Virus record (IMG/VR): IMGVR_UViG_3300034352_000121
Span: 1-22,193 of that record
Direction: 5' to 3' (one strand)
DNA from: a virus
Length of the DNA: 22,193 bases
Under the pieces are notes generated by a model. It had not been told where the DNA came from and made no database searches. It worked only from the letters and a program-made list of their open reading frames with translations. Positions 2,513 through 21,429 of this stretch are shown piece by piece. Position 1 is the stretch's first letter. Each line of letters begins with the position of its first letter. The position numbers were made by a program, and so were the translations under genes.

Positions 2513-3051
2513 AGTTTTTTAGAAGAATAAAGAGAGAGAAAAAAGAAAAGAAGTCCTCGTCAGATGATGACGAGAGTGATTTTGTAATGGAAACAATTGC
2601 CGTTGCTGGTTTTGTAGCTAATCAGTGGGAAAAAAAGGAACAAGCAAAAATAAACGATAAAATGGCTGACGCTTTAGAGCTACAAAATACTCAAAATGCT
2701 ATGGGTATACAAGGAGCTGGGGAAGCTCAAGAAGGTAGTAGATTGCTTCGTCAAAATAGGCTAGGTCAAGATATATCTAATATGGGAGCAGCTGGAGCTT
2801 CCACAATGAAACAAAATTTAGGTTCTCTATCTGATGCAAAAAGTACTTTCGCAGGGAATTATAAACAAAACCAAGCACTAAGCTTTGGTAAAAAATCTGT
2901 ATGGGATACTTACAATCTACAATTTGACCAATTAAAGAGACGAGATGAGGATTCAATGATTCAAGAATTAACTGCTTCTGCGTCAGCAGCTGCAGATTTT
3001 AAATCTAACGCTAAAGATATGAAATCTCAAATAAAAGGGCTAAGAGGGTAA
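2509..3051 (+). CDS. Small internal virion (ejection) protein, T7 gp14-like in size and position
   Basis: The 180-residue product starts at ATG 2509, sharing ATGA with the previous stop. The N-terminus is strongly basic (KFFRRIKREKKEKK), followed by a Ser/Asp acidic stretch (SSSDDDESD) and a mildly hydrophobic helix (ETIAVAGFVANQWEKK, about residues 29-44). The rest is Ala/Gln/Asn-rich helix without cysteine. Size, helix-rich composition and place in front of two larger proteins and a giant resemble T7 gp14 before gp15 and gp16, the ejectosome that forms a channel through the cell envelope. I see no sequence identity with gp14, so this is an analogy from gene order. An A_AAA_AAG heptamer at 2631-2637 lies in the gene, but its -1 frame stops soon, so it looks accidental. 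Confidence 0.72.
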   Translation: MKFFRRIKREKKEKKSSSDDDESDFVMETIAVAGFVANQWEKKEQAKINDKMADALELQNTQNAMGIQGAGEAQEGSRLLRQNRLGQDISNMGAAGASTMKQNLGSLSDAKSTFAGNYKQNQALSFGKKSVWDTYNLQFDQLKRRDEDSMIQELTASASAAADFKSNAKDMKSQIKGLRG

Positions 3052-4712
3052 TGGCACAATATATAGTTCCACCAAGTTATAGAGCTGGGCAAGGAAATAG
3101 ATTAGCGTCTAATGTTAAAGATAGCCTCGCTTTAATGGACTTCCTAGTTAGATTAAAACAAGAGAAAATGTCTACAAAAATAGATGATGCTCGGTATTAT
3201 GCTCGTCAAGCAGCTGAGGAAGGCTCTCAAACTCGTAGGGATGAAAGATTGCATAAATATGGGTTAGAGGAGATAGAAAAAAGAGAGACCTTACAAATAG
3301 GTAGAGAAGACAGGGCTTTGGTAGCTGAGAAGAATAAAGAGCAACGGATATATGGAAAGGGCGGATTCCAATCCGATAAGGGAAAAGAAGAATTATATAG
3401 AGGATTATTGTCTGAATATGATACTGATGATATCAAAACGGATGACAAGGGATGGTCTTCAGTTGTGTCTGGGGCGTTAACTAAAGCGGACAAAGCAAAG
3501 GCATCTGATGATGTTTTTAAGTTATCAGGTTTTCAAACAAAATATTCTAAAGACCCAAAATCTGAATTTCAAACTCTTTGGACTGTATTTAGACAAGCAC
3601 AAAGTATGCAACATCCTGAGACTGATGTAAGGATAAGGACGGAAGGAAAGAAACGTATTCCAGAGTTCTTTTATCCTAATATGGGGGGTCTAAAAGCAGG
3701 AACAACTATGGGTTATGATATTGACCATACCCCAGGGGCTTTTACTCAAGGGGATATTGCACCTGCTATCAGAGATTTATCTAAGTTAATAGAAGGAACA
3801 GGGTTGCCTGAGACGGCAGTGTCTAATATGTTTCATTCTGGACTATCGAAAAATCAACAATTTATGGACTCAAAAGATTATCAGTCTTATCAGTCAATTA
3901 ATAAGGGAATAGAATCGACCACACAAGGAATTAAAGCCTCAACAGTGAATGTAAATAGGACTCAACAGCTAATTAATCAGTCGTCTAGTACCGAACAAAA
4001 TACGAAAAACAAAGCCTCTTTGGACTATGTAGCAACAGATGTTTTTGGAACTATATATAGTCAATTCTTTACGACTGAAGACGATGTAATGAAAACAACT
4101 GAAACTATGAACCAAAAAATGTCTGACCTAAATGAGAAAAATCCAGATTTAGCACACGCAACAAGGGCTCTTTTCTTCCAGGGGAGTAATTATTTAAACG
4201 AAGGAGGCCCTAACACTTATGAGGTGTACGATGATTTCTTTGCGAAATTTATTATGCATGACGAACCTGGCCGAGGTGGAAGCCCATCTGTGGCTCAACA
4301 GTCCTTTGAGGCTATGGGATTGTCTAATGAGTATAAAAAGGTAAAGGACATTGTCGATGGAAAAGATATAAGGGCAGGAAAAAAGGGAAGTATTGAGCAT
4401 ATTTATGTGATGGATTCTGCTGTTAGGATGGCTGAAGGGAAACAAGAAGAGATGCCTTTTGCTAAAGATATATTAGATGAGTACTTTAGAGATGCGTCTG
4501 GTCAGTCTACCCCTATATTGAAATCTTTAGATACTGCCAAAGAACGAGGAGATTTATCATATAAATATGAAGGTAATAAACTTATAATAATTTTTGATGA
4601 CGAGCAAAATGTGCATGCGTTCAGACAGGCTATAAAGGGACAATCTCCTGTAGAAATGCAAACCTTTGACAGTTTAATAAGAAACAATTTAATTGATATA
4701 CAAATAAAATGA
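3051..4712 (+). CDS. Probable internal virion protein, 553 residues
   Basis: I do not recognise this family. The start is ATG 3051 in a TAATG junction with the previous stop, preceded by AAGAGGG. The product is hydrophilic with no signal peptide or membrane segment. Residues 30-110 are highly charged and probably form long helices (LVRLKQEKMSTKIDDARYYA, EKRETLQIGREDRALVAEKN). A Gln/Ser/Thr-rich linker lies near residues 285-325, and the C-terminal 100 residues look globular (NKLIIIFDDEQNVHAFRQAI). The next gene begins in its stop codon (ATGA). Its place between the small 180-residue protein and the giant matches the slot of a gp15-like ejectosome tube protein. The assignment rests on context alone. 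Confidence 0.75.
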   Translation: MAQYIVPPSYRAGQGNRLASNVKDSLALMDFLVRLKQEKMSTKIDDARYYARQAAEEGSQTRRDERLHKYGLEEIEKRETLQIGREDRALVAEKNKEQRIYGKGGFQSDKGKEELYRGLLSEYDTDDIKTDDKGWSSVVSGALTKADKAKASDDVFKLSGFQTKYSKDPKSEFQTLWTVFRQAQSMQHPETDVRIRTEGKKRIPEFFYPNMGGLKAGTTMGYDIDHTPGAFTQGDIAPAIRDLSKLIEGTGLPETAVSNMFHSGLSKNQQFMDSKDYQSYQSINKGIESTTQGIKASTVNVNRTQQLINQSSSTEQNTKNKASLDYVATDVFGTIYSQFFTTEDDVMKTTETMNQKMSDLNEKNPDLAHATRALFFQGSNYLNEGGPNTYEVYDDFFAKFIMHDEPGRGGSPSVAQQSFEAMGLSNEYKKVKDIVDGKDIRAGKKGSIEHIYVMDSAVRMAEGKQEEMPFAKDILDEYFRDASGQSTPILKSLDTAKERGDLSYKYEGNKLIIIFDDEQNVHAFRQAIKGQSPVEMQTFDSLIRNNLIDIQIK

Positions 4713-5761
4713 GCAACGGACAAACACCACAAAAAGGAAGGTCTTTAGGAAAATCATGGCTAGATGCCAATGCTAGTGAGGATTCAATTTTACACAATGC
4801 TGCTTTAGGTAATATACAGACTGAAACAGATACATTAAAAGCAGGTGACAGTACCCATGTAGAGACTGCTCTTAAGGGAATCTACGGCCCAGTCAGTAAA
4901 TATGTGACTCAGGAGTCTTTATATGGTGATTACTCTGATATATATTCATCATTAAATACCTTATCTGGAAGGAATATGACAGGATTTGACCCTATTGATT
5001 ATGCGACAAAAAATAAAATGGGGAATCCTTGGGAATTAGAAAGAGCTGTTAGGGGAGGTTCTTTTGAGCATTACGCTCCAAGAAAAGGAAGATGGGAAGG
5101 ATTTTCTTCTAGTAAAGCTGAATATGATAAAGGAAAGAAACTCCCTGGGTTCTCTCAATGGCAAAAAAAGGGAAGACCTTCAATAGAAAATTATTTTTAC
5201 GACTTAGCTTTTTCGCAAAATCTTAGAGCAACAGTTGATTTAGGAGCTGGGGCTCAAAATAAAAAAGCAGGGCATCCATCTGTAAAGGCTCAAATGAGAA
5301 AATTAAAAGAGTTTACTGGGGATTCTTATGAAGGGTATATGAAAGATATAGTTAAATCTTCTATTGCCCAGGCTGATAAATGGGCTTCTGAGTATAGCCT
5401 TGAGACTCAAAATATGATGGGGAAATCTATATTAGCTGTTGATAATAGACAGATTACCAATGAAGTACGTCAGAATCTTACAGACTTAAATAAAGTTGTA
5501 AACAGAAAGGCTGAATTTGAAAAGACTAAGGCATCATTAAATAATATTAAGGATAGTGAAACACAAGATATAACTCTTAAAATTCTAAAAGATGAAGAAA
5601 ATTCTGTAACAAAATTAGAAGATAGAATCTTATTTAACATAGATGCTTCTAGCGGAAAAATGACTAGGGCTTTAGGTCAGTCTCTTGAGAATATGATGAC
5701 TATCCAAAGTTTCCCAACATCAGCCAAGCGTCGAACTCAAAAAAAAAAGATAAAAAAGTAG
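4709..5761 (+). CDS. Probable internal virion protein, 350 residues, with -1 frameshift site at its end
   Basis: The gene starts at ATG 4709, overlapping the previous stop (ATGA), and has no family I can name. The protein is hydrophilic and helix-rich. A central segment (LGAGAQNKKAGHPSVKAQMR, residues about 178-197) is followed by helices, and the C-terminus is very basic (SAKRRTQKKKIKK). The last codons read CAA AAA AAA AAG ATA AAA AAG TAG and contain two in-phase A_AAA_AAG heptamers. The -1 frame is open from base 5689 and runs past the stop into the zinc peptidase ORF that ends at 6129. The likely outputs are therefore a 350-residue protein and a minor 473-residue protein with a peptidase domain at its C-terminus. 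A sequencing indel in the A10 run would be an alternative explanation for the broken frame. Confidence 0.78.
   Translation: MSNGQTPQKGRSLGKSWLDANASEDSILHNAALGNIQTETDTLKAGDSTHVETALKGIYGPVSKYVTQESLYGDYSDIYSSLNTLSGRNMTGFDPIDYATKNKMGNPWELERAVRGGSFEHYAPRKGRWEGFSSSKAEYDKGKKLPGFSQWQKKGRPSIENYFYDLAFSQNLRATVDLGAGAQNKKAGHPSVKAQMRKLKEFTGDSYEGYMKDIVKSSIAQADKWASEYSLETQNMMGKSILAVDNRQITNEVRQNLTDLNKVVNRKAEFEKTKASLNNIKDSETQDITLKILKDEENSVTKLEDRILFNIDASSGKMTRALGQSLENMMTIQSFPTSAKRRTQKKKIKK
5743..5758 (+). promoter_or_regulatory. Tandem A_AAA_AAG slippery heptamers (candidate programmed -1 frameshift)
   Basis: Two copies of A_AAA_AAG, the heptamer used by E. coli dnaX, lie in the correct zero-frame phase at 5743-5749 and 5752-5758. 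The second is followed directly by the TAG stop at 5759-5761. A shift of -1 at either site reads on through GTA GTC CCA TGG into the M15 peptidase frame. I see no strong hairpin and no upstream Shine-Dalgarno stimulator. A weak CCAG/CTGG pairing could form 15-40 bases downstream. The tandem sites and the abutting stop may be enough for low-level shifting. Confidence 0.65.
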
Positions 5762-5838
5762 TCCCATGGCTCCCAGAAGGAATAAAAGATACTGGTTTAA
5801 AAAATGCGTCAGGGCATAGAATTCGTTTCCATGAAGAT

Positions 5839-6129
5839 ATGATTCCTATATTTTTAGAAGCTAAAGATACTTTAGAAAAGGAAGGTATAGATTTGAACAT
5901 TCAAGACAATTTTAGGTATCCTGGGGTTCAAAGAAAAGCTTATGAATCAGGTAAGTTTGGAGTTGCTCATCCTGATAGTTCATTCCATCCAAAAGGTAAA
6001 GCATTTGATTTAGAACAAACACATGAAATGAAAGATAATCCAAGAATAGCAGAAGTTCTATCGTCATTAGGACTTATACAATCAGCTTTAGATAAGGGAG
6101 AGTGGTGGCACTGGTCAACGCCTAAATAA
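5839..6129 (+). CDS. M15-type D-Ala-D-Ala/L-Ala-D-Glu zinc peptidase domain, probably made as frameshift extension
   Basis: The ORF encodes the zinc site of peptidase family M15: SFHPKGKAFDL supplies His50 and Asp57 (the SxHxxGxAxD motif) and EWWHW supplies catalytic Glu88 and ligand His91, numbered from ATG 5839. Enzymes of this family cut peptidoglycan stem peptides and serve phages as endolysins or virion-associated lysins. The ATG at 5839 is a poor start: it has only a weak GAAG site and it cuts off residues that look like the beginning of the domain (NASGHRIRFHEDM). The frame is open upstream to 5689 without any ATG, GTG or TTG before 5839. The natural N-terminus is therefore probably supplied by -1 frameshifting from the 350-residue protein. 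Linked to an internal virion protein, it would locally open the cell wall during DNA entry, as the transglycosylase domain of T7 gp16 does. The domain call is firm; the start is not. Confidence 0.85.
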   Translation: MIPIFLEAKDTLEKEGIDLNIQDNFRYPGVQRKAYESGKFGVAHPDSSFHPKGKAFDLEQTHEMKDNPRIAEVLSSLGLIQSALDKGEWWHWSTPK

Positions 6130-6131
6130 AT

Positions 6132-9100
6132 ATGCCTCAAGATAAAAAATTTAGTTATATAGACGACATCTATGATGAGTTCAAAAAGCGTGAACAGTCT
6201 ACTATAGACATGACTCGCCAAAACGAACAACAGACTTCACATCAACGAAATATCAAACGAATGAATGAAAAATCTCGTGGGGTAGAGAGAGGTGGAATGG
6301 GTGAATTTACTCGCCAATTCGGAGCTGGCTTTATTGAAAGTGCAACTTTGGCTCCTACTCTTTGGGATAAGTTAGGTGTGCCTGTGTCCTCATTAGTAGA
6401 ATCAGTTGAAGGTGAATATGAAGGAGATTGGGGAGACCTTAGTGGGACAGGTAAGGCTGGCTTTGGATTGGGAGCTGGAGCAGGTGCTCTTCTTCCTTGG
6501 GGTCTAGCTGGTAAAGTAGTAGGTGGAGGTTTAGGACTTGTTGGGAGAGGGGCAGCCCTTATAGGAAAAAATCCATGGACTAAAAGAGCAGCGTTACGTC
6601 AAATAGCAGCTCAAACAGAAAAATTAACAGGAAAAGCTGCCGTTAAGTTGAGTGACGATGTTCTTAAGGGGACTGTTGATGCAGCGACAGATGCAGTGGG
6701 TAAACGTGGTCTTGCTTCTCTTGTTTTAGGGAAAGGAAGAGGAGAAAGTTTTGAGGTTATAGCTAAGTCTCAAATTAAAGCAAATATAGCAAAAGATGTT
6801 GGTGCTGAGTCTATTGATGATGTAACAAATATAGCTTATGAAGCCGTTACGAGTATGAACCCTAAGGATGCTCATGCTTTCTTATCTTCTACTCTAGGGA
6901 GAATACCAAATCTGATAAGAAGAGGAGGTATTATGGGTAAGGGTCGAGGAGATATGGCTGGTGAATTCCTTGCGGCTTATTCATTTGATGCTCTTCTTGG
7001 GGCTACTATGGGCGCGGCAAGATATAATATGCATCATTGGGATGAACATATGAAGGAGACTGGTACTGAAGGATGGGGAACTCTTTCTCCTTACGTTAAC
7101 ACAATCGATACTGCTAAAATGTTAGATGAAATGCAAAGTGAGGCTTTTTGGCTTGGGTTCTTAGGAATATCAAGATTGGTAAAAGGTGGAACTTCTGGTG
7201 CTAATGTTATGGGAATGAAGTCTAAGGCAAGTCAAATGTCTTGGAATCTATTAAAAGCCCACGCTAAAGACCTGAAAAAACTTACGCCTAGAGAACTTAG
7301 GGGACAGCTAAAATTAATAGATAGAATATCAGAAGGCTCTCTTGTCCATGAGGGTATTCCTTCTATAACAAAGGCAGCGAGCAAGTTTGATGATTTAGCA
7401 TCTGTTAAAAAAGGATTAGGTAAAGATATACATTGGTCTGACCTTATGGATGAAAAAGATTTAGTCGGGGCTTTAAAAGGAGTTAGGTGGCAGTTTACTA
7501 AGAAGGCTCCTAAGTTTCTATTTGATGAAGCAAGAAAAGATTTATGGGGTAGTCTTCCAAGAATGATGATTGGGGCTACAACTATGAACCTACCCGCTAT
7601 AGCTCAATTACATGAAAGGACTGGCGGTGATATTGGGGCTACTCTAAAGAATGCTCCTTATACATGGGGAGAAAGCTTACCTGAAATGGCAGCTAATATA
7701 TTTGTAGGAATGGTTATGACTAAAAAAGGTAGAGGTATGAGACTATATGATAAGCCTTCCTCTGCTATGTTCCAAAGAGGGCATCCTCCTCAATTCATAG
7801 GTGGGCAAGCTAGCATATTTAGAAAGATGTTAGGCAGTATGGAGACAATGGGGATGAGTACCAAAGAAATTAGAGGTAATCATAGGGCATATAATTATAG
7901 TGCTTCTCAAAGATATGAAGAAGGGATGCGAAATCATGCTCTTGATGGCAACCCCACTTATAAAAAACTACAACAAATTTTAGATTCTAAGGGATGGGAT
8001 AAAGAATCAGATTCTAAAGTAGAGGGAGAACTTCCATTTAAAATTGCAATATCAGAAGCAATTGCTAACGAAAAAAACCCAAATATTAGAAAACAATTAC
8101 AAGAACAAAAGGCTGTTGCTGAAACAATTATAGCTGAAATGGATGTTTTATCTGGCTCTAATTATACTTCTAAGTATATGACACCAGGAGAAGCTCTTAG
8201 GTGGATGCAAAGAATTGCTAAGACTAGGATTAATGGTGAAGTTTCTTCTATTGAAACAATCAGAGAAAATTTAGATGTTCACGCTGAAAGAGTTTTCGGA
8301 GAATCAGCTAGTAGAGCCAAGGGGATACAGTTCAAGTATATTATGAATATCCTAAGAGATATGGGTCTTGACTCAGATGTTAGAGTAGATAAACAAGGCA
8401 GGATTGTATTGCCAGGACAAATTAAGTTGTCAATCCCAAGTGGAGAAGCTGGTGATGCTATTGTGATGAAAACTAATTTTATGAAGGTTCTTCAAGACGG
8501 AGCTAAGGTTGGTTGGATAAAATTCGGAGATAAAAAGTCAGATGATTACGTAGCTAGTGTTGAACAGACTGAAAAGGCATTAAAAACTCATAATGAAGTA
8601 CTTGACGAGATGCATAGGGAAGTCTTTGGAAAAGATTATACTAGAGACGGAGAAGACTATGTTGGTTTATTTGACGATACTATAGTGTCTAACCCAGTAT
8701 GGGGTCTTACGAATAGACATTATGCAAATATAAAACAAGGTAAAAATGTAATAGCTTTGTTAACTGGTAATGTACCATCAACGGATACAGCAGGGGGGGC
8801 AGAGGCTACAAGGCTTTTATCTGATTTGCAAAGAGCGTTATCTGCTAAAAATATTGAAGTTACTGGGTGGGATGCGGTAAAGGATTCTGACTATCAAACT
8901 AGTGAGTCTAGAAATGAAGCTTCATTATGGTTTAGTAATGTTAAAAAAGCTTTCGGATTATTAAATGAATCCCCATCTCAGGGAACAAAAGAAATAACAG
9001 CTACTCAATTAATAGCATTAAAAACTAAGATGGATTCTCTTGTTGGAGATGCGTTTATTAACCCTGATGCAGTCAATAACCTCATAGGGGAGAGTGGTAA

Positions 9101-12100
9101 GATTGTTGAATACGCTGTGATGAATATGGGTATAAAGGGAGCATCGTTCTCTTCTAAGGTTGGTATACTCCACCTTGTTAAGAATAATGATATTTCAGAG
9201 GGATTAAATCTCCCAGATGCAACTAAGGTATCTGAGCTTTTATCTATTAAAGAAAAGAATGGGGATATTTCTCATGAGGAAAGAATTGAGTTAGAATCTT
9301 GGTATAATAAAAATATTTTAGGGGCTATTGAAGAGAGTAGGACATCTGTTATTAAGATAGAGGCTACTACAATTGATGACAAAGCCCAAGAAGGATGGCT
9401 CCCAGCTTTACAAAACGCTAAGAAACAATTTACACATGCTGAGCAAAAGTTGGATATGATGAATATGCATGGGCTTGTTAAGTCAATTGATAAGACCTTA
9501 GCTAGCTTCGGAGTAGGTGAAGACCTTATGTCTCAAGTTCGTGGTTTAGAAACAGCTGGCATTGAAGCGACTGAAGGGAATAAAGACCTCGCTGAGCATA
9601 TTGGAAAGATGAACTCCTTAACTACAGATTTAAAATTTAAGATTGAAAGAGCGTTGAGAGAGGGCGACGTTGACATGATGAAAGAATTGTCTACAAGGTC
9701 TCCTGATTTGCAATTATTGATGGATAAGTTAATGCAAACCGCACCTTCTTCTTCTCATGAGGCGTTTCTGGTAGAGCTAACTAAGCATTTAAACGATTTA
9801 GACGCATTTAGAGATAAGAAAATTAGTGAAGTAGAAATGGATGAAATGGTTGAAGGTAGGATAGCCTCGTCCGCCACTAAGGGAGGTAAGGACAAAAGTG
9901 AGAACAATGATGTAGTAATTACAGCGTCTCAATATGCTATGAAATATAATATTCATCCTAATGTTATGATGGAAATTATAAAGAGTACTAAGTCTAGATT
10001 CGGAGTAGGTCAAGACCTTATATCTGAAGTTCGTAGGACAATGCCTTATTTATGGACAAAAAGTCCGAAAGATATGTCAGCGGTTGAAAAGAATCTCGTT
10101 AGAAGTTTAAACTCTTTAGATAACATAACAAAGGATTTGGATAGCCTCCAAAGGGATTTAGCTCCAACCCCGAAAGAGGTGGTCGAAGATTTAATACCAA
10201 GATTAATGTTGTTAGCTAAGGCACAGTCAGAACAACGACAAAAGGTTGGTCTACATCAGGAATCAGGTACTTTAGAATCAGATTTAAAAACTGATACATT
10301 CCAATTACTAAGAGGTTTGTTTAATTCAACAGATGTATCCGTTCTAGAATTTGTTAATGGAGGTTTTGATTTACGAAGAAATACAGTATCTAAGAGCAAT
10401 AATGGATTTTTAGGACTCCAGAAGTTATTGGGATTGCAAGATGGACTGTATTTAATGAGCAATAGTGCAGTTGTCGATAAAAGAAAAGTAAACTTTATTG
10501 ATTCAGATAATATTAAGATAATTAAAAAAGATTTAGCATCTGGAGAGGGTCAGATAAGTTCTCAAGAGCTTCAAAGACTTCAGGCTTCAGGTGATGCAGG
10601 TACAAAATCTATGTATCAAGAATTATCTAGGCTTGTAAGCGGAGACCATAATTTTCAAATAATACATTTAGATGAAAATACAAATATGGTTTTTATTAAT
10701 TCTGTAGAATCTAGGTCTAGGTTAGCATCGTCTTTTAATAAGGATGGTGCAGTTTATGACCAATTAGATAAGATGTATGCCCTTGATAGCAATACCAATA
10801 TGAAGCAAAATGTATTGAAAATTGCTGATGGGGTAGCCAATGGAGACTCTAAGACTATAGAGCAGTCTATTCTTTTAGCGAGATTAATGAATGATTTTTC
10901 TCCTGAGGTTGCTGAATACTTATCGTCAAGAAGAATTGATTTTTCAGAAGCTAAAGGTCTTTGGAAAAGATTAAACCTTACAGAGTCTAAGAGTGGTATC
11001 TATGGTACAAAGGATAATTTAGATTTTGCTTTAGAGGCGTATAAATTATTTTCAAAAGAAGGCTCTGAAATACATCAAAAAACATTAGAAGTAATGGAAT
11101 CTGAATTTAAAACACCATTTAAAACATGGGTAATTAATGATGAGTCTGGAAGTCATAGTCAATTAGATGCATATGAGGTAATCGTTGCTAAAGCAGGTAA
11201 GGAGCTTGACTCTGGAGTGTTAACTAAAGAGCAATTTGATTCTATAGAAAAAGATTCTAGGGCTTTGCAGGGTAGAGGAGTAGCTGACGCTGATTGGTAT
11301 ATATCTAGAGATAGATTTCTATCTATATTGGGATTGTTTGGAGTTAGAGAGAATATGCTTATTACCACAGAAATGGGAGAAACGTCTCCAAGTGGAGTCT
11401 TCAGAGAGACATATACTATAGACGGGTTCAGGTCAGGAGCTATCAAGCCAACAGTACATTTAAATAATGTTGAAGCAGATGGTAGCATGACCCTTTTTAT
11501 AGGAAAAACTGCATTTAAGTATGACCCATCTCTTGATAATCTTATGAGCACTAAAAGGATTAATTCTTTAACCTTTAAGAGTGCGGCTAAGATATGGACT
11601 ACTGTTGATAAATTGGATGGAGGAACTATACAGTCTCCCAATAGAGATAAATGGCAGAAACTACCTCTTACTGATGATAGAAGAGATTTTAATGATAACT
11701 GGATGTCTGAATTAGATAGACATAATGCAGATGCAACAATAGACATACCGTGGGAAGCAATTAATTTTAAACAAGTGTCTAGAGAGCATACCTCTGGGGT
11801 AGGAGCAAATACATTTAATCACTTTAGTGAGAGAGGTCAGGCCGCAGCTAAAGAATGGGCTGATGTTGACAATAGGATGAACAATTTTGATGGAAATTTT
11901 AGACTTATGATAAACGACCCCTATGCTAGGACTGATATTGTTAGGCAAATGCTAGGGTTTTCTATTGAACAAGGGGATAATACCCTTGCTCGGACTGGAT
12001 TAGATTATATTGTTGAAGAGGGTGGTGTTCTTACTGATTCATGGCAAATACCTCAGATAGAAAGAGCGATGATATCATATTATTTAAATGGTGGTGCAAT

Positions 12101-15100
12101 TGTTAATAAACAGGTGTATCATTCTTCAATGGATGTCATGACAGCTGCTCCTTCAGAATACGATTCGCCTATAAGAATAAAAACAAGAAAAGATGGAACT
12201 CTTGGTGGACTCCCAATTCAAACTCAGTATGGTGGCAAGGGGATATCATTCTTTTTAGGAGAAAAATCTTTTTCATTGACTGGCTCCCAAGATATGAATA
12301 TAGACTCTAATGGGAGTGTTGAGGTGGGACAGAAACAAGGTTCGGCATTTATATTTAAACATGGATATGAACAAAAATTAGGAACAGGTCAGACCGAAAG
12401 GCGTCAAAATATATCAGAAGAGGGCATTGTCTATGAGAATGTCTTCGGAGATAAAATTATTAATTATAGAGGACTTCAGATTACAAAAGAGGGAGGTGAT
12501 GTGAAGGTTAGAAGGCTATCTGACAGTACTAAGTCGGAATGGAAATCTATAGATTTTGATACTCCGTGGGACAGAAATGGTCTTATGATTGATGATGTAT
12601 CTTTTGATAAAAAGTTTTTTGTAGAATTGTACGAACAGCACGCAGGTAGTGAGAGTGAGTATAGTAAGACAATAGGATGGGTTAAGGATAACCTACAATT
12701 TAATGTTACAAATTCTGATGTTGTTAATCACCTAAAAGATAAAGGACTTTGGTTGGCAGCTTTTAGCATAAGACAACCTCGAAACTCTCCTGGAGATATT
12801 ATCTTAACTAAGGTTGAAGATGTTTTAGACCATAGACAGGGGAATGTTGAAAAGACAAACATATTAGATGCCCTAAAGCATCACGATGCAGATAATGATT
12901 TTGATAAGAACACTACATTCACAGCTGCTCCTGATGGGATATGGACTGAACTTGGTCGACTTTCAGGTTCAAAGATATGGTCAAGTCAGGCTGATATTAC
13001 AAAAAACATAGAACATCTTATGGATAGAAATAATTTAATGTTAGATGACAATGGTATGATGTCGATGCAGCAAGGGGATGTTATTGAAGGGGCATTGATA
13101 AGAGGAAGATATGTTAAAATGCATCAAACACTTACCTACATGATGAATATGTTTGGGAATAAAGGGACTGTTTTAAAGGGGATTTATAAAAATAAGGAAA
13201 TAAGTATAAAATGGAATGATAATCCTCAGGCGTATTTAAATACAGCGGATTCAATATCGCATTGGGTAAAAACTTATATTGATTTATATAAAAGGACTAC
13301 TCGCTCGCAGGCAGATAGTCGCAATTTTATAGACAACGTACAGTGGGATATGTACTTTGGAAACGCAGATAGACCAGGCTTATTTAGTTTAGTCGACCAT
13401 CAGGGTGTGGCTATAACAGATAAATGGGGTGGTAATAGTGAGTATGCTCCATTAAAAGAAGCAATAGCTGCTAGATTATTAAACCCAATTAATAAATTTC
13501 TTACTTTTAACAGAGGAACTGCTGACTTGGGTGAAGGTTTCTCAAGGCAGGCGTCCTTAGAGCAAATGGCTAATGGGTATTCGACATTAATACATAGTTT
13601 AGACTCTAACACTTCTTGGAATGGTGTTGATTCAAAAAGTCAAAACTCTAAGGGGTGGTCAAGTATAGATGTTATGCCTGGGTTAGATTCAGCTAGGCAA
13701 TATTTTGCGAGGTCTAATAATCCTTTTGATTATGGAATGAGAAGACTTCATGAGCTTGATAGGAGCAAATATGCAGATGTTGATTATAATAAAGATTCAA
13801 TAGGAAGTTTGGTTCAAACCGTTGAGTCTGGTAAATTTGATAACATAAAAGATAGTCAGACTGAATGGAATAAATCTTTACAAAGTGCCCTCCATCATTA
13901 TGTAAAATCTGAAGGTAAGATAGTTGAGATAGTTAATCTTCAAAGAAAAATTGATGCAGTTAAAGAGAACATTGAGTACACTCAACAAAAATTTGGTGAG
14001 AATTTTGAATCATTTGAAACCTCAAGAGATGCTAAAAGATTAGATTTATTGGAGCAAGCTAGGGATGAATTGGTAGCTGGGGTTGGATTCCAAAGAGATT
14101 ATATAGTGGGTAGATATTCTGATGTTATAAATACGGTAAAGATTAAGAATGAATTAATTACAGAAGGTAAGTTGACAAATCATTTTCCTAAAACTCCAAT
14201 AGGAGTTATTATAAAAGGCGAGTTGAGTGAAGTTATAATGCCAGGGAAAAGCAATAGAAATTCAATTCCTAAGGGGGCAACTGTTATTGAAAGCCCTAGA
14301 CGTTATGAAGCGGCTAGTCTGAGTGCTATGGGGGATAGAATAAATTTTCATATGTTCGCTGGTCGACCATCTTATCATGGTGAGGATGGACGAAGAGAAG
14401 ATATGTCTATGAATGATTGGAAAGCTACTAAAGGTATTGTTTATGATATTAAAAAAAGGTTTGCTGATATTGCCAAAAGATACGATGATGCTCCTCAAAA
14501 TACAGTAGGTACTAGAGAAGCAGAAAAAATCAATGCTATACATGAGGTTTTGACTGACCCAAAATGGTCGTCCTTCTCTGACCGTGGTATGATTGGAAAG
14601 TGGTCAATGATTCAAAGGTTATTAGTTCCTGAATTGGATAGAAGTGTTATGGAAATTTCTCCAGTTGTAGGCATTGGGCAAGACGTACAAATACAACCTA
14701 AGGTTAGAATGGCATTCGGAGGTTCTATAGAAAAGTATCTTGTAACATATTTAAATCAAATAAGAATGGGGTCATATAGGGATACAGGCGGTAAAGATGT
14801 AGGTTTTTCTACTCAAAATGAAGCAACACTTTTACTTGAGCATTATACTCAAAGCAAAAAACAAGGACTAGTAGAACTAACAAATAAATTTGGAGATTTA
14901 GAAGTTCTAAGAGAAGGTGTTTTTAGTAATGAAATTGATGTTAATAGGTGGCATGGATTTAAGGAAATTAATTTAAACCAAGAGGTTGGACAGTGGAGTA
15001 CTGATTCTAGAGAATCTACAGCTAATGCATCCAAAGTGTTAATGAAGTATGCATCAGGTGAGATATTGGTTGACCCATTTGTATTGTATAGGCACTCTCG

Positions 15101-15314
15101 TGAGATGGAATCAGTTGGAATCCCTCGTAGTCAAATATTTGGGAAATGGGTAGAGTCTAAGGTTCAGGCAGATTTCGGTAAGTCTACGAATATGGAGTTT
15201 ATTCACCCTCTAGACGCTGCAAGTGAAAGAGGTAGGCGTTTTGGTGACCAAAGTATAGAAAAAGAAGGAATAGATGGTATGATTGATAGAGTATTTAGAT
15301 GTGGAGGTAGGTAA
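6132..15314 (+). CDS. Giant (3060-residue) ejected virion protein; candidate virion RNA polymerase of the two-barrel crAss-like type
   Basis: ATG 6132 lies two bases after the peptidase stop and has no clear Shine-Dalgarno site, so translation is probably coupled. The first ~550 residues contain glycine-rich hydrophobic segments (GFGLGAGAGALLPWGLAG near residues 110-127, others near 275-300, 335-345 and 520) that could insert in a membrane, as in ejectosome proteins. Residues about 600-1900 are long, charged and mostly helical, with a short duplicated motif at 1126 and 1290. Around residue 2036 the motif QYGGKGIS resembles the GNKG lysine motif of the beta-subunit barrel. At 2214-2259 an RQP motif followed by ADNDFDK resembles the RxP...ADFDGD catalytic loop of beta-prime and the DFDIDK loop of crAss-like polymerases. 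The spacing (about 220 residues) is like that in single-chain QDE-1-type enzymes. I see no T7/N4-type polymerase motifs and no HExxH. The virion-protein role is likely; the polymerase call is motif-level inference. Confidence 0.8.
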   Translation: MPQDKKFSYIDDIYDEFKKREQSTIDMTRQNEQQTSHQRNIKRMNEKSRGVERGGMGEFTRQFGAGFIESATLAPTLWDKLGVPVSSLVESVEGEYEGDWGDLSGTGKAGFGLGAGAGALLPWGLAGKVVGGGLGLVGRGAALIGKNPWTKRAALRQIAAQTEKLTGKAAVKLSDDVLKGTVDAATDAVGKRGLASLVLGKGRGESFEVIAKSQIKANIAKDVGAESIDDVTNIAYEAVTSMNPKDAHAFLSSTLGRIPNLIRRGGIMGKGRGDMAGEFLAAYSFDALLGATMGAARYNMHHWDEHMKETGTEGWGTLSPYVNTIDTAKMLDEMQSEAFWLGFLGISRLVKGGTSGANVMGMKSKASQMSWNLLKAHAKDLKKLTPRELRGQLKLIDRISEGSLVHEGIPSITKAASKFDDLASVKKGLGKDIHWSDLMDEKDLVGALKGVRWQFTKKAPKFLFDEARKDLWGSLPRMMIGATTMNLPAIAQLHERTGGDIGATLKNAPYTWGESLPEMAANIFVGMVMTKKGRGMRLYDKPSSAMFQRGHPPQFIGGQASIFRKMLGSMETMGMSTKEIRGNHRAYNYSASQRYEEGMRNHALDGNPTYKKLQQILDSKGWDKESDSKVEGELPFKIAISEAIANEKNPNIRKQLQEQKAVAETIIAEMDVLSGSNYTSKYMTPGEALRWMQRIAKTRINGEVSSIETIRENLDVHAERVFGESASRAKGIQFKYIMNILRDMGLDSDVRVDKQGRIVLPGQIKLSIPSGEAGDAIVMKTNFMKVLQDGAKVGWIKFGDKKSDDYVASVEQTEKALKTHNEVLDEMHREVFGKDYTRDGEDYVGLFDDTIVSNPVWGLTNRHYANIKQGKNVIALLTGNVPSTDTAGGAEATRLLSDLQRALSAKNIEVTGWDAVKDSDYQTSESRNEASLWFSNVKKAFGLLNESPSQGTKEITATQLIALKTKMDSLVGDAFINPDAVNNLIGESGKIVEYAVMNMGIKGASFSSKVGILHLVKNNDISEGLNLPDATKVSELLSIKEKNGDISHEERIELESWYNKNILGAIEESRTSVIKIEATTIDDKAQEGWLPALQNAKKQFTHAEQKLDMMNMHGLVKSIDKTLASFGVGEDLMSQVRGLETAGIEATEGNKDLAEHIGKMNSLTTDLKFKIERALREGDVDMMKELSTRSPDLQLLMDKLMQTAPSSSHEAFLVELTKHLNDLDAFRDKKISEVEMDEMVEGRIASSATKGGKDKSENNDVVITASQYAMKYNIHPNVMMEIIKSTKSRFGVGQDLISEVRRTMPYLWTKSPKDMSAVEKNLVRSLNSLDNITKDLDSLQRDLAPTPKEVVEDLIPRLMLLAKAQSEQRQKVGLHQESGTLESDLKTDTFQLLRGLFNSTDVSVLEFVNGGFDLRRNTVSKSNNGFLGLQKLLGLQDGLYLMSNSAVVDKRKVNFIDSDNIKIIKKDLASGEGQISSQELQRLQASGDAGTKSMYQELSRLVSGDHNFQIIHLDENTNMVFINSVESRSRLASSFNKDGAVYDQLDKMYALDSNTNMKQNVLKIADGVANGDSKTIEQSILLARLMNDFSPEVAEYLSSRRIDFSEAKGLWKRLNLTESKSGIYGTKDNLDFALEAYKLFSKEGSEIHQKTLEVMESEFKTPFKTWVINDESGSHSQLDAYEVIVAKAGKELDSGVLTKEQFDSIEKDSRALQGRGVADADWYISRDRFLSILGLFGVRENMLITTEMGETSPSGVFRETYTIDGFRSGAIKPTVHLNNVEADGSMTLFIGKTAFKYDPSLDNLMSTKRINSLTFKSAAKIWTTVDKLDGGTIQSPNRDKWQKLPLTDDRRDFNDNWMSELDRHNADATIDIPWEAINFKQVSREHTSGVGANTFNHFSERGQAAAKEWADVDNRMNNFDGNFRLMINDPYARTDIVRQMLGFSIEQGDNTLARTGLDYIVEEGGVLTDSWQIPQIERAMISYYLNGGAIVNKQVYHSSMDVMTAAPSEYDSPIRIKTRKDGTLGGLPIQTQYGGKGISFFLGEKSFSLTGSQDMNIDSNGSVEVGQKQGSAFIFKHGYEQKLGTGQTERRQNISEEGIVYENVFGDKIINYRGLQITKEGGDVKVRRLSDSTKSEWKSIDFDTPWDRNGLMIDDVSFDKKFFVELYEQHAGSESEYSKTIGWVKDNLQFNVTNSDVVNHLKDKGLWLAAFSIRQPRNSPGDIILTKVEDVLDHRQGNVEKTNILDALKHHDADNDFDKNTTFTAAPDGIWTELGRLSGSKIWSSQADITKNIEHLMDRNNLMLDDNGMMSMQQGDVIEGALIRGRYVKMHQTLTYMMNMFGNKGTVLKGIYKNKEISIKWNDNPQAYLNTADSISHWVKTYIDLYKRTTRSQADSRNFIDNVQWDMYFGNADRPGLFSLVDHQGVAITDKWGGNSEYAPLKEAIAARLLNPINKFLTFNRGTADLGEGFSRQASLEQMANGYSTLIHSLDSNTSWNGVDSKSQNSKGWSSIDVMPGLDSARQYFARSNNPFDYGMRRLHELDRSKYADVDYNKDSIGSLVQTVESGKFDNIKDSQTEWNKSLQSALHHYVKSEGKIVEIVNLQRKIDAVKENIEYTQQKFGENFESFETSRDAKRLDLLEQARDELVAGVGFQRDYIVGRYSDVINTVKIKNELITEGKLTNHFPKTPIGVIIKGELSEVIMPGKSNRNSIPKGATVIESPRRYEAASLSAMGDRINFHMFAGRPSYHGEDGRREDMSMNDWKATKGIVYDIKKRFADIAKRYDDAPQNTVGTREAEKINAIHEVLTDPKWSSFSDRGMIGKWSMIQRLLVPELDRSVMEISPVVGIGQDVQIQPKVRMAFGGSIEKYLVTYLNQIRMGSYRDTGGKDVGFSTQNEATLLLEHYTQSKKQGLVELTNKFGDLEVLREGVFSNEIDVNRWHGFKEINLNQEVGQWSTDSRESTANASKVLMKYASGEILVDPFVLYRHSREMESVGIPRSQIFGKWVESKVQADFGKSTNMEFIHPLDAASERGRRFGDQSIEKEGIDGMIDRVFRCGGR
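9507..9542 (+). repeat. Copy 1 of a 36-bp in-frame direct repeat in the giant gene
   Basis: This copy encodes FGVGEDLMSQVR (residues 1126-1137). It matches copy 2 at 9999-10034 in 33 of 36 bases, while the flanking sequence is much less alike. The distance between copies is 492 bases (164 codons), so both are in the same frame. Confidence 0.8.
9999..10034 (+). repeat. Copy 2 of a 36-bp in-frame direct repeat in the giant gene
   Basis: This copy encodes FGVGQDLISEVR (residues 1290-1301) and differs from copy 1 at only three bases. Weak protein similarity continues outside it: both copies are followed by predicted helices with Leu/Asp heptads, which suggests an old module duplication with a conserved core. 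Confidence 0.8.
12174..12266 (+). other. Candidate first catalytic barrel motif (beta-like GxKG lysine) in the giant protein
   Basis: Residues about 2015-2045 read RIKTRKDGTLGG, then LPIQTQYGGKGISFF. The GGKGIS part, with K2036, resembles the GNKGVIS motif of bacterial RNA polymerase beta (E. coli Lys1073). The second conserved lysine of cellular beta, eight residues earlier, is not matched (a proline is there). K2017 and K2020 are possible substitutes, because spacing differs in single-chain enzymes. Alone this motif would be weak; it matters because the Asp motif follows about 220 residues later. Confidence 0.45.
12768..12908 (+). other. Candidate second catalytic barrel motif (RxP...ADxDxDK, metal-binding aspartates)
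   Basis: The segment starts with IRQPRNSPGDII (R2214, P2216) and ends with HHDADNDFDKN (D2254, D2256, D2258). The layout follows RAPTLH...NADFDGD in RNA polymerase beta-prime, and the DxDxDK ending matches the DFDIDK-type loop known from crAss-like phage polymerases. The spacing from the proline to the first catalytic Asp is about 38 residues here against about 33 in E. coli. The three aspartates would hold the catalytic magnesium. Confidence 0.55.
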
Positions 15315-18232
15315 TGTCTTGGTTATTATGTAAACCTTCCAACAGGAAGCATGACAATAAGAATGATGAGAAGAACAAGCAGCTTAGAGATTCTATGAAG
15401 CAGCATGGTATTATGTACACAACTGACCCTAATATTGTTAAATGGAACTACCATAAGGACACAAAGACCTTTGAGTGGTTGTTTAGGAGATATACAGGTA
15501 AGGAAATGGACTTAGATGCTAACCCAATAACGCCAGCTGATTTAAGAATATTTAAAAGTGGTATAAAAGAGTTCTCTAGAGATTTAGGCAAACAAGGGAC
15601 TCTTCGTGAAAGAGTATCATCCTTTTTTAAGGTACCTGGTGCTACTATGAGAAAATTACCAGAGTTAAAAAGGTATCAAGACGATTTAATTGCAGAGTCA
15701 TCTTTCTTTAGAAGATATCAAATTGAGAATCAGCATCATTCAAAAATAGTAGCAGACAATTGGGAAGTTTTAGCTGCTGAAATCGGAGGTAAAAATTTAC
15801 CTAAAGAATTTAGGGCTCTTGAGAAAAAAATGGATGTTAACCTATCTATTAAAACCCCAAATGCTGAGCAAAAAGCGGAAAGAAATGCTTTAAAACAGCA
15901 GTGGACTCGTTTGTTAGAAAAAGGCGCCGTCCCAGTTTTAAGAGATATACAAGAAGTTATTAATGGCGCTGATATCGATACTTTACCTGGATATACTCAA
16001 GGACAAAAATCTATGTTGAAAGAGATAGATTCAAGTATGATGAAGATTAGACAGAATGGGGTAAAGATTATGACGAGTGCCCTTAGGAAAGTAATTGAAA
16101 CTGCTAAAATGGTTGATGCGAGAGAAGGTTCTACTAGAAATTTACATAATATAATGAAAGAGCTTTCATCTGCTATAAAACATATTGAATTTCAAGGTAA
16201 AAAAGATATTGAAGGGGGTAAAGTCCCATATAATAAGATGGTGGCTGATACGGATATGGAAGTATTGGGATTTACAAAGGGAGAGACTATCTATTTTAAA
16301 AAATATATGCCACATAAATTGTTAGGGATGGTAAAGTTAATTAAAGATGGTCATAGGATGATGTTAAATACAGAAGGAAAAACATCGGAACAACAAAGCT
16401 TAGATTGGGATAATTTTAGAACCAATGTGGAGTCTGCTATGAGTAGGTCTCCATTCCCAAACCCTTATTTTAGTAAAGACCCTTTATTCTTTCTTAGGCA
16501 ATACAATCATGAGATAGCTCAATTTAATTATCAAGCTCACTTAGAAAATACATTTAGAAAACAAGTATCACATTTAATGGATATGTCAGAGAAAGCTGTT
16601 AATGAAAACGATAGACAGCTAGAGAGAGCTTCTGAGGCTTTAATTACACAAATGCATGAGATGAAGCATAGTTTAATTGGTATTGACCCTAAGTCGGATA
16701 GTGCCCTTAATCAAATGTCTAGATTATTAACTTCTGTGCAGTATTTCAGATTAATGGGTGGCAATGTTAGGTCAGCGGCTAGAAATGGGACTCAAAGACT
16801 TTATGAATTTGTTCATTTTGGGTTTAAGGCTACTAAGGACGCTGGTAAATGGTATAAAGACAACCCTGATAAAAAGTCTGGAATGGAAAAACAAGCAAAG
16901 GCTCATGGTATTCTTTGGCATTCAGGTGGACAAGGCAAAAGAACAAGGGATGCCCTATCTGTTGAGACTGGTGCTAGGGGAGCAATTGAAGTTAGTCAAG
17001 TTCCTCAGGGTATGAGAGTTGATAGTGATGGTGTTTTACGAATGTCAGAAGGAGCAGAAATTGGTAAAAAAGTAACTGAAGCTGCTGCTAAGACTGCTGA
17101 TATGTTTGGTACTTTTCATAGGAGAGTTGAGAATTGGAATAGAAAAGGAACTTTTGAAACAGCTTATTCATTATCAAAAATGAATCTAGAAAGAGCTAGT
17201 GATGCTTGGGTCTCAAAACAAATGGGAGTTTCGTTAGATAGGCTTAGAGGTAAGGGTGGAGCAGGCAAGCGTGAAGCATGGGAACAACGGAAGGCTGGTA
17301 ATGTTGCTTATAATGCAGTCGTTGATTTACATTTTGAATATGCTAAGTGGGCTAAATCTAAAGCATTGAAAGGGCCAGCTGGTCAAGTGGTTGGACAGTT
17401 TTTACATTATAGATTTAGTTTGTTTGATTTGATGTCAAGGTGGTGGAAAGATGGGAAAAGGTCTATTTTAGCTGGTGATTTTAATAGAGAAGAGTCTTGG
17501 AGATTATATCGTTTAGGATTAATACAAAGCATGGTTTCTGGTACCTCCTTAGCTATGGGTTTAAATATAGGAGCATTAGTTCAAAATGATGTGGTTGAGA
17601 CTGCTGAACAATTGTGGATGCTAATGTCAGCGGATAGAGATAATCCTGATGAAATGAAAGAATTAGAAAGAAAAACATATAGACAAGGAGTCACATCGTT
17701 TGCTGGTCCTACTGTTAGCCACGGTATTCAATTCGGAGAGTGGATGAATTGGTGGAGCACAGACCATAACGGAATACCTCGTTCACCGTATCAGTATACT
17801 GTGGATACAGGTGATAGTTATAAAAGAAAGCAAAGATGGAAAGGTAGAAGTTTAATTAATTCTGAGTTAGCAAGAGCATCTACTTATAGCATACCAGTCC
17901 TCGCAGAGCAAGGTATATGGGATTTTGCTCAATTAGAAAGCGGGACATACCTTACAAAAGAAAATAGAAAAACTAGAAAAAGAGCAGGTAGACTATTTAG
18001 AGATTATGTTCCTGAGAAAATTAGAAACCTAAGACCATTTGCTGATGTAACGTTAGCTCAATCTAAGCTTCCTAATGTGTTGAGACCTAAGAGAGCTGGA
18101 GCTGTAGCTGGTTTAAATAAGAGACCTGGATTGAAAGTAAGCCCATATGAGGTAAGTAGAGTTCTTGGCTCTCTTGATTATATTAAAGGGAAAGCGACCC
18201 CTGGTTCAATATTAGAAACAATTAGGAGTTAA
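15314..18232 (+). CDS. Large (972-residue) probable virion/ejection protein after the giant gene
   Basis: ATG 15314 shares its A with the TAA stop of the giant gene (TAATG) behind GGAGGTAGG, so the two are co-translated. I cannot name the family. Most of the protein is charged and helical. Residues about 600-710 contain FHRRVENWNRKGTFETAYSL and later VVGQFLHYRFSLFDLMSRWW, a layout reminiscent of C-terminal regions of large phage polyvalent (LPD) proteins, although I cannot confirm the relation. A hydrophobic stretch near residues 735-757 (SGTSLAMGLNIGALVQ) could cross or touch a membrane. The C-terminal 150 residues are very basic (ENRKTRKRAGRLFRDY, LRPKRAGAVAGLNKRP), suitable for binding DNA. 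It is the last gene of the plus-strand operon. A role as a partner of the giant protein in the virion is inferred from linkage. Confidence 0.75.
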   Translation: MSWLLCKPSNRKHDNKNDEKNKQLRDSMKQHGIMYTTDPNIVKWNYHKDTKTFEWLFRRYTGKEMDLDANPITPADLRIFKSGIKEFSRDLGKQGTLRERVSSFFKVPGATMRKLPELKRYQDDLIAESSFFRRYQIENQHHSKIVADNWEVLAAEIGGKNLPKEFRALEKKMDVNLSIKTPNAEQKAERNALKQQWTRLLEKGAVPVLRDIQEVINGADIDTLPGYTQGQKSMLKEIDSSMMKIRQNGVKIMTSALRKVIETAKMVDAREGSTRNLHNIMKELSSAIKHIEFQGKKDIEGGKVPYNKMVADTDMEVLGFTKGETIYFKKYMPHKLLGMVKLIKDGHRMMLNTEGKTSEQQSLDWDNFRTNVESAMSRSPFPNPYFSKDPLFFLRQYNHEIAQFNYQAHLENTFRKQVSHLMDMSEKAVNENDRQLERASEALITQMHEMKHSLIGIDPKSDSALNQMSRLLTSVQYFRLMGGNVRSAARNGTQRLYEFVHFGFKATKDAGKWYKDNPDKKSGMEKQAKAHGILWHSGGQGKRTRDALSVETGARGAIEVSQVPQGMRVDSDGVLRMSEGAEIGKKVTEAAAKTADMFGTFHRRVENWNRKGTFETAYSLSKMNLERASDAWVSKQMGVSLDRLRGKGGAGKREAWEQRKAGNVAYNAVVDLHFEYAKWAKSKALKGPAGQVVGQFLHYRFSLFDLMSRWWKDGKRSILAGDFNREESWRLYRLGLIQSMVSGTSLAMGLNIGALVQNDVVETAEQLWMLMSADRDNPDEMKELERKTYRQGVTSFAGPTVSHGIQFGEWMNWWSTDHNGIPRSPYQYTVDTGDSYKRKQRWKGRSLINSELARASTYSIPVLAEQGIWDFAQLESGTYLTKENRKTRKRAGRLFRDYVPEKIRNLRPFADVTLAQSKLPNVLRPKRAGAVAGLNKRPGLKVSPYEVSRVLGSLDYIKGKATPGSILETIRS

Positions 18233-18262: not shown

Positions 18263-18430
18263 TTAATTAAATTCTTTCTTTTTTAACGGTTGTTCTTTTT
18301 GCGTGTGAATGAATTGCATAATATCATATATTAAAAGATACAAATCATCCCATGTTTGAATTTTATCAAATTTAGTAGATATAATTTTTTTATCTATTGC
18401 TATTTTTTTTTCTATCGGTATTAGTGCCAT
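18263..18430 (-). CDS. Small 55-residue hypothetical protein overlapping the resolvase gene
   Basis: ATG at 18430 is preceded by an AAGGAAGGG ribosome-binding site about 7 bases upstream and opens a 55-codon frame ending in TAA at 18263. The peptide begins MALIPIEKK, has a central segment KFDKIQTWDDLYLLIYDIMQ that should form an amphipathic helix, and ends in a basic tail (PLKKKEFN). It overlaps the 3' end of the resolvase gene by 41 bases in another frame. Plausible composition, a strong ribosome-binding site and its filling of an otherwise empty 157-base gap support a real gene. The function is unknown. It would be the last gene of the minus-strand operon. Confidence 0.65.
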   Translation of the reverse strand: MALIPIEKKIAIDKKIISTKFDKIQTWDDLYLLIYDIMQFIHTQKEQPLKKKEFN

Positions 18431-18893
18431 AATTTCTGCCCTTCCTTTTGTAATATTTGGCGATTAAAATAGCATCTGCGTTAGCAAATGTAACATTGAA
18501 TGTGCTTTTAGAATTATCAACATATCTTTGAGCAAATATTTTTAATTTATTTTTTCTTTCTTTTCCTTGAACTGTTAATTCGTATTCTTTTTGCCATTCT
18601 TTAGGACTAATCTTTATCCATTCTACATTTAAGGTTGTTAGGATACCCTCCCAAACACCTAAATTTCTTCCGAAAGTAAAAGTTCCCTTAGCCGATGAAC
18701 CTCTTAATGCGTGAACATCCTCTACCATCCAACGTTCTTTAAATCCTTCTACGTAGCAATGGTTTTTAATGGATTGTACTATCTCAGGGAGTTTATATAA
18801 CTTAGATGGGAATCTATAAGCATCAATAGTTCTGTCTGGCCACACAACTGATATACCACCGTTGTAACCAGGGTCTATTCCAATATAAGCTAT
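18390..18893 (-). CDS. RuvC-like Holliday junction resolvase (crossover junction endodeoxyribonuclease), probable ATA start
   Basis: The product has the RNase H-fold RuvC signature: IGIDPGYNGG with Asp7, MVEDVHALRG with Glu58 followed by TFTFGRNLGVWEG, and NADAILIAKYY with Asp140 (numbered from the ATA at 18893). Phage enzymes of this type resolve branched DNA during replication and packaging. The first ATG/GTG/TTG-type codon in frame is GTG 18845, which would remove the first catalytic Asp. Upstream of that Asp there is no ATG, GTG or TTG back to the in-frame TGA at 18956-18954. ATA at 18893 gives MAYIGIDPG, the natural start of such proteins, and overlaps the TAG stop of the preceding gene (ATAG). 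I chose it for that reason. The family is clear; the start is inferred. With this start the protein has 167 residues, normal for the family. Confidence 0.85.
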   Translation of the reverse strand: MAYIGIDPGYNGGISVVWPDRTIDAYRFPSKLYKLPEIVQSIKNHCYVEGFKERWMVEDVHALRGSSAKGTFTFGRNLGVWEGILTTLNVEWIKISPKEWQKEYELTVQGKERKNKLKIFAQRYVDNSKSTFNVTFANADAILIAKYYKRKGRNYGTNTDRKKNSNR

Positions 18894-19090
18894 ATTATTT
18901 CGCCGTGGAATAGGTCTACGATTCTTTCTATAATCGGATGGGTTTCTATTGGTTCAAGTTTAGACACTCTATGCTTACATCCTTTCGAGAATATTTCATG
19001 AGGTATGTTTTTAGGTCTTGCAAACCACAAGCAGTCACCGTGTTGCTGATAACTACAACCTCGGCAACTGATGCGTTTGCTTAATATCAC
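18890..19090 (-). CDS. Small four-cysteine protein, possible zinc-binding
   Basis: The 66-residue product starts at GTG 19090, sharing GTGA with the stop of the helicase gene, and ends at TAG 18890. It has Cys9, Cys12, Cys20 and Cys38 in the motif CRGC...GDC...GCKHR, with His17, His31 and His40 nearby. This would suit a structural zinc site or, less likely, an iron-sulphur cluster. I recognise no named family. Coupling between helicase and resolvase suggests a role in replication or recombination, for example as a small DNA- or protein-binding adaptor. Confidence 0.7.
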   Translation of the reverse strand: MILSKRISCRGCSYQQHGDCLWFARPKNIPHEIFSKGCKHRVSKLEPIETHPIIERIVDLFHGEII

Positions 19091-20403: not shown

Positions 20404-20404
20404 A

Positions 20405-21235: not shown

Positions 21236-21429
21236 TCTTCCTCCTCATCTATTTTCTTTTGACCCCACCACCAGCCGTTACCGTTCTCTTGAAAAAGTTT
21301 AGACCTTGCTTTTAAATAGGCAGGGTCATCAACATCTCCTTTGAACGGCCAGCTAGAAGTTTTATTTCTCCAATCATAGAAAGAGCTTGGTATAGGGTTT
21401 TTTTTGGGTTTAAGCCCTTGCTTCTTCAT
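21232..21429 (-). CDS. Small 65-residue hypothetical protein with acidic tail
   Basis: ATG 21429 lies inside the 3' end of the DUF932 gene (20-base overlap), and the TGA overlaps the methylase ATG. The N-terminus is basic (MKKQGLKPKKN), the middle aromatic (SFYDWRNKTSSWPF, GNGWWWGQ), and the end acidic (DEEEE). The codons of that acidic tail (GAG GAG GAA GAA) form the ribosome-binding site of the methylase gene, so the tail may reflect this constraint rather than function. I recognise no family. Coupling on both sides supports a real gene. Confidence 0.6.
   Translation of the reverse strand: MKKQGLKPKKNPIPSSFYDWRNKTSSWPFKGDVDDPAYLKARSKLFQENGNGWWWGQKKIDEEEE
21240..21245 (-). promoter_or_regulatory. 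AGGAGG ribosome-binding site of the methylase gene
   Basis: A full AGGAGG lies 4 bases before ATG 21235 and is embedded in the Glu codons that end the 65-residue gene. Confidence 0.75.

Follow-up and report, generated by a model that had tools for sequence, protein, structure and literature searches.

Results

The Locus and Its Neighbours

This locus raises the question of how an open reading frame (ORF) that crosses the end of another gene in the -1 frame, and that offers no usual start codon over its first 150 nt, comes to be translated, and what its product could do for the phage. The window, that is, the whole stretch of DNA analysed, is an entire virus record of 22,193 bases from an uncultured phage and is probably a genome fragment. 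The gene whose end is crossed, here called gene A, lies among the following genes.

3051..4712, + strand: 553-aa protein, upstream of gene A, which it overlaps as ATGA
4709..5761, + strand: gene A, 350 aa, frame 2; the product ends in KKKIKK followed by the stop
6132..15314, + strand: 3060-aa protein, downstream of gene A, without a family match
15314..18232, + strand: 972-aa protein with a weak NCBIfam match, tail-700 / PLxRFG domain

The end of a tail-fibre chaperone (S74) precedes this region, upstream of the cassette that holds the 553-aa and giant proteins. Positions 18390-22186 carry replication-type genes in the opposite orientation, on the minus strand, encoding a DnaB-like helicase, a D12 adenine methylase and a DUF932 protein. 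Shine-Dalgarno sequences are present at the starts at 2509, 15314 and 21235; none is recognisable at 4709 and 6132 or, in the related contig L006 described below, at 2644 and 4528. Most genes of these packed operons share -1 overlaps (ATGA or TAATG), so that an open -1 frame at the end of a gene is, taken alone, unremarkable.

The original prediction regarded gene A as an internal virion protein. The one support for this identity is the operon position of the gene: gene A has no match in Pfam, PHROGs or NCBIfam and none among phage records by tblastn, and no homology to T7-type internal virion proteins was found. Since gene A itself lacks a family match, we infer its association with the virion from its surroundings. 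The region looks like an ejection-protein cassette, which is supported by the match of the 972-aa protein to the tail-700/PLxRFG model (residues 657-793, E 3.4e-9, under the curated cut-off), and the 3060-aa protein is likely a giant ejected virion protein.

Gene A Ends on Two Slippery Heptamers

The 3' end of gene A reads CAA AAA AAA AAG ATA AAA AAG TAG and contains, together with the frame that overlaps it, the following elements.

5689..6129, + strand: -1-frame ORF (frame 1), 146 codons plus stop, which would be entered through a shift
5739..5748, + strand: A10 run, containing heptamer 1; a candidate for RNA polymerase slippage
5743..5749, + strand: slippery heptamer 1, A_AAA_AAG, in the phase of gene A; kept in L006 (3609-3615)
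5752..5758, + strand: slippery heptamer 2, A_AAA_AAG, abutting the stop; kept in L006 (3618-3624)
5759..5761, + strand: TAG stop of gene A

The two in-phase A_AAA_AAG heptamers first noticed here, the second touching the stop, are therefore confirmed at these positions. Both have the X_XXY_YYZ form associated with programmed -1 ribosomal frameshifting, in the 0-frame phase and upstream of the stop, and in the window an A_AAA_AAA overlaps heptamer 1. In E. coli this heptamer ranks with the strongest -1 sites, and dnaX uses it (PMC5009743, PMC4066793). Among the genes of the window and of L006, gene A is the only one with -1 slippery heptamers inside an overlap with a long -1 frame.

From 5689 to 6129, across the stop of gene A, the -1 frame stays open, and its first ATG, GTG or TTG is the ATG at 5839, as had been claimed. 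None of the ATC, ATA and ATT codons in this frame, when read by eye, has a well-placed ribosome-binding site. The stretch ahead of the ATG had also been said to resemble coding sequence, and it does so modestly: positions 5762-5838 score +7.1 bits over 25 codons in the -1 frame, the best of the six frames, the other two plus-strand frames scoring -12 and -15 bits. The score from 5839 to 6126 is +42.5 bits. The -1 ORF is thus both open through the site and coding.

A stimulator is usual, though not obligatory, for -1 frameshifting, and none was found in the window: no downstream RNA structure was stable beyond that of shuffled sequences (z +1.0 to +1.3), and no Shine-Dalgarno-like stimulator was obvious upstream of the site. 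The efficiency of a shift could therefore be low. In L006 a hairpin directly follows the site, its energy lying within that of shuffles (z -0.84). At least one proven case of -1 frameshifting has no established stimulator (PMC4066793).

The -1 Frame Encodes a Predicted M15-Type Peptidase

The -1 ORF is a real domain and, as judged from its residues, a predicted M15-type zinc peptidase.

5818..6126, + strand: M15-type zinc peptidase domain, with predicted zinc-site residues H (5986-5988), D (6007-6009), E (6100-6102) and H (6109-6111)

The complete zinc site on which the original prediction relied is present: H50, D57, E88 and H91 of the 96-aa ORF have the spacing of M15 enzymes (SxHxxGxAxD ... 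ExxH), and the motifs SFHPKGKAFD, EWWH and FRYPGVQ agree with the M15 motif of MEROPS, including the upstream R and Q. When the ORF was aligned with 12 phage M15 enzymes, R33, Q38, G45, S55, H57 and A62 were invariant, and D64 and the final H were almost invariant. Homology to the MEROPS M15 family was found by hhalign (E 5.1e-5, probability 67%), and our own HMM, built from 12 phage M15 domains, ranked the -1 ORF first of 479 ORFs (E 0.003). The trimmed domain gave weak matches that did not reach curated cut-offs, to VanY (E 0.53), VanX (PRK10178, E 0.021) and phrog_5115 (E 0.015); the Pfam models M15_3 and M15_4 did not match the -1 ORF, nor did any phage record match its protein. A single-sequence AlphaFold2 model (pLDDT 37.8) was too poor for a fold search. 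The homology begins at FHEDM, aligned with GVHPDLV, a few residues before ATG 5839.

The family phrog_5115, which the region 5818-6126 matched, is labelled "ferredoxin". A match to the catalytic domain of Ply500-type enzymes at 7.9e-53 shows it to be a mislabelled family of M15 (Ply500-type) endolysins, and the wrong label recurs on Listeria phage LP-114.

The Junction Is Conserved in a Relative with a Different Module

One relative was found, an 18.5-kb IMG/VR contig (IMGVR_UViG_3300022225_000848, here L006). Its homologue of gene A (L006:2644-3657) is 65% identical at the protein level, and its 3048-aa and 972-aa proteins share 89-91% identity with their counterparts in the window (89% for the giant protein). 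Viral contigs were scanned with gene A, the gene A alignment, a conserved stretch of gene A, the peptidase ORF, the alignment of the 3060-aa protein and its conserved piece, the 972-aa protein and the junction DNA pattern, and these scans returned no relative beyond L006. Scans of genome contigs for relatives were empty, and phage records held no match for gene A or the 3060-aa and 972-aa proteins. The junction DNA pattern occurred in the T4-like phage contigs L010 and L011, inside an open 613-aa gene with no gene end nearby, and was rejected there as a chance occurrence.

In L006, gene A ends GTA AAA AAA AAG ATA AAA AAG ACC CGT GGC TCC CAA ATG AGC ATA TGG CAT TAG, in which the site, A9-GATAAAAAAG, is as in the window. 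Both heptamers are kept despite divergence of the 3' end of the gene and the absence from L006 of the 12 codons directly before the site. They belong to a short conserved island.

5740..5775, + strand: conserved junction island, encoding KKKDKK..PWLP in the -1 frame

Of 33 aligned bases in the island, 31 are identical between the two phages, apart from a 3-nt gap, as against 88 of 136 in the portion of gene A before it; such identity has a probability of about 1e-4 under a 65% background, for a region chosen after being seen. The gap preserves the -1 frame, and a CCA/CCG difference is silent in it. In both phages the -1-frame peptide is KKKDKK, then VV or D, then PWLP. Since the bases encoding PWLP lie 3' of the gene A stop in the window, 0-frame coding cannot account for their conservation. 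The predicted fusion junction would read ...KKVVPWLPEGIK in the window and ...KKDPWLPNEHMALAM in L006. The site is thus conserved in the one relative available.

What follows the junction is another matter. Beyond the island, the window and L006 share nothing up to the next gene, and the place of the M15 domain is taken by a different module.

L006:3648-4505: C-terminal module, 285 aa

Its ORF begins MALAMAGMIPGPTGITADIADAALYAKEKDWKGMGWALLGAIPLLGQVA..., a hydrophobic start, and contains a hydrophobic segment, PGPTG...ADIADAALY, which we presume to resemble the pre-toxin regions of polymorphic toxins. The module had no usable match in Pfam, NCBIfam, PHROGs, PADLOC, the PDB or phage records, and its single-sequence AlphaFold model (pLDDT 40.9) was too poor for a fold search. 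Our M15 HMM found no M15-like ORF anywhere in L006. The original prediction had called for an alignment of homologues; in this comparison the slippery site and the -1 junction peptide were kept, while the M15 ORF was not. From the unrelated module and the absence of an M15 ORF in L006, we conclude that one C-terminal module has replaced another while the junction was preserved, and that the conserved part is the site and not the lytic function. Judged from these two sequences, the site resembles a socket into which different effector domains can be fitted.

Recoding and Its Alternatives

The reading to which we give slightly better than even chances is that gene A and the ORF behind it are one recoded gene, in which a -1 slip would yield a predicted M15 fusion at a dose set by the slip rate. 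Most ribosomes would terminate at the TAG at 5759-5761 and release the 350-aa protein. A minority would slip one base back on A_AAA_AAG, the tRNA-Lys re-pairing from AAA AAG to AAA AAA, and would read on into the peptidase, the resulting fusion being about 473 aa long. The enzyme would then travel with the gene A protein, probably to the particle or among the ejected proteins. In the related phage the same site would feed another C-terminal module, the junction being constant and the modules swapped. Ribosomal shifting is our first choice because A_AAA_AAG is a strong -1 site in E. coli and because insertion sequence (IS) elements and phage structural proteins provide precedents. The 150-nt start-less part of the -1 ORF, with M15 homology that begins before the first ATG, was counted in favour of recoding. 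The comparative case covers two genomes.

The same fusion could be made by RNA polymerase. If the polymerase added one A on the A9-A10 run, some mRNAs would encode the fusion in frame, and extended products do arise by transcriptional slippage in Shigella spa13, while many IS elements rely on it (PMC5009743). The run is longer than A_AAA_AAG needs; the A10 exceeds every other homopolymer of the window, and the A9 at the same place in L006 is the longest there, tied with one T9. On the other hand, both heptamers lie exactly in the phase of gene A, and the second, interrupted heptamer (ATA AAA AAG), which is probably too short for the polymerase, is also conserved, which argues for ribosomes. 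We therefore favour ribosomal slippage and hold polymerase slippage to be unlikely.

As the chief remaining alternative, two separate proteins could be made, the downstream ORF starting by itself (ATG 5839 in the window, ATG 3648 in L006) through coupling or re-initiation. A start at 5839 would retain every zinc ligand, and several genes here begin with no evident Shine-Dalgarno sequence. A relative whose peptidase clearly starts on its own had been named at the outset as evidence against a fusion, and in part such a relative exists: ATG 3648 of L006 lies in frame with the downstream ORF and overlaps the stop of gene A by 10 nt, in the -1 phase, like other coupled genes of the operon. The window, however, offers no such ATG; its first start is 77 nt beyond the stop and has no good ribosome-binding site. 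What is more, both ATGs are preceded by coding signal in the -1 frame and by the conserved PWLP peptide, and separate initiation leaves the conserved heptamers unexplained. We regard it, too, as improbable.

Variation in the length of the A run, through replication slippage (phase variation), decay of a broken gene or an assembly error, is very improbable: a homopolymer of 10 is prone to replication and sequencing errors and one extra A would fuse the genes in frame, but two contigs with gene A proteins 65% identical show the same frame relation, with A10 after C in one and A9 after T in the other, so that an error or decay would have had to arise twice, independently. Stop-codon readthrough was rejected, the 0 frame meeting another stop within eight codons.

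Discussion

Under the recoding that we prefer, the site resembles several known systems. E. coli dnaX, IS911 and other IS3-family elements use A_AAA_AAG in the same phase as gene A, and in IS elements the -1 shift joins an upstream protein to a catalytic domain encoded in the -1 frame (PMC5009743). The site described here differs from those of dnaX and IS911 in having no demonstrated stimulators and two heptamers nine bases apart, and in belonging to a phage late gene instead of a polymerase subunit or a transposase. Frameshifting also extends the C-terminus of some copies of structural proteins, as in T3/T7 gene 10, SPP1 gp17.1* and the Listeria phages A118, A500 and PSA (PMC5009743, PMC9022992). 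Those added domains are mostly Ig-like or FN3 and non-catalytic, whereas here the predicted addition is an enzyme and, in L006, an unrelated module; those proteins are virion proteins, whereas gene A encodes a presumed one.

A virion-linked N-terminal part followed by variable C-terminal effectors is characteristic of MuF polymorphic toxins (PMC5576092), and among phages with MuF-VIP2 fusions and their kin, Floof lacks the VIP2 part carried by its relative Percival (PMC7302621). In MuF toxins the C-terminal part is fused in frame within one gene, while the gene A candidate would be joined through the -1 frame, and no match to a MuF domain was found in gene A. Polyvalent phage proteins are large and co-injected, and some have peptidoglycan-cutting domains (PMC5512222). 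The likeness here lies in the weak PLxRFG/tail-700 match of the neighbouring 972-aa protein; polyvalent proteins carry the domain in frame, whereas attachment here would be by recoding. The M15 endolysins Ply500, PlyP35 and SPO1 gp19.3 have the same zinc-site motif and invariant residues as the -1 ORF. They are stand-alone lysis enzymes, whereas the predicted domain is a C-terminal extension in a structural-type operon and, unlike them, lacks an independent start close to the domain boundary.

The peptidoglycan-cutting domains of injected polyvalent proteins have been proposed to cut the wall locally at entry (PMC5512222), and by analogy the predicted M15 domain would fit such local cutting. 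We infer, taking these points together, that the shift occurs and is made by ribosomes and not by RNA polymerase, that the gene A protein belongs to the virion, and that the M15 domain cuts peptidoglycan at entry. More tentatively, and at somewhat less than an even chance, the conserved -1 recoding site may act as a constant adaptor that sets the dose on a particle or ejection protein of the phage, while recombination swaps the unrelated effector modules behind it: a cell-wall peptidase in one phage, and in the other a module that may be toxin-like.

Frameshifting is already known to give phage structural proteins inert or adhesive domains and IS proteins catalytic domains. In the literature that our search covered, which was part of the whole, we found no account of a particle protein of a phage in which an exchangeable catalytic module follows a frameshift site. 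If our reading is correct, an enzyme would be added to a late, probably particle, protein of the phage at a dose set by the slip rate, and the module behind the site would be exchangeable between close relatives. The combination of a late gene ending in slippery heptamers, a start-less -1 ORF and a conserved junction peptide is a signature that can be searched for, and it would find effectors that gene callers truncate or mis-start.
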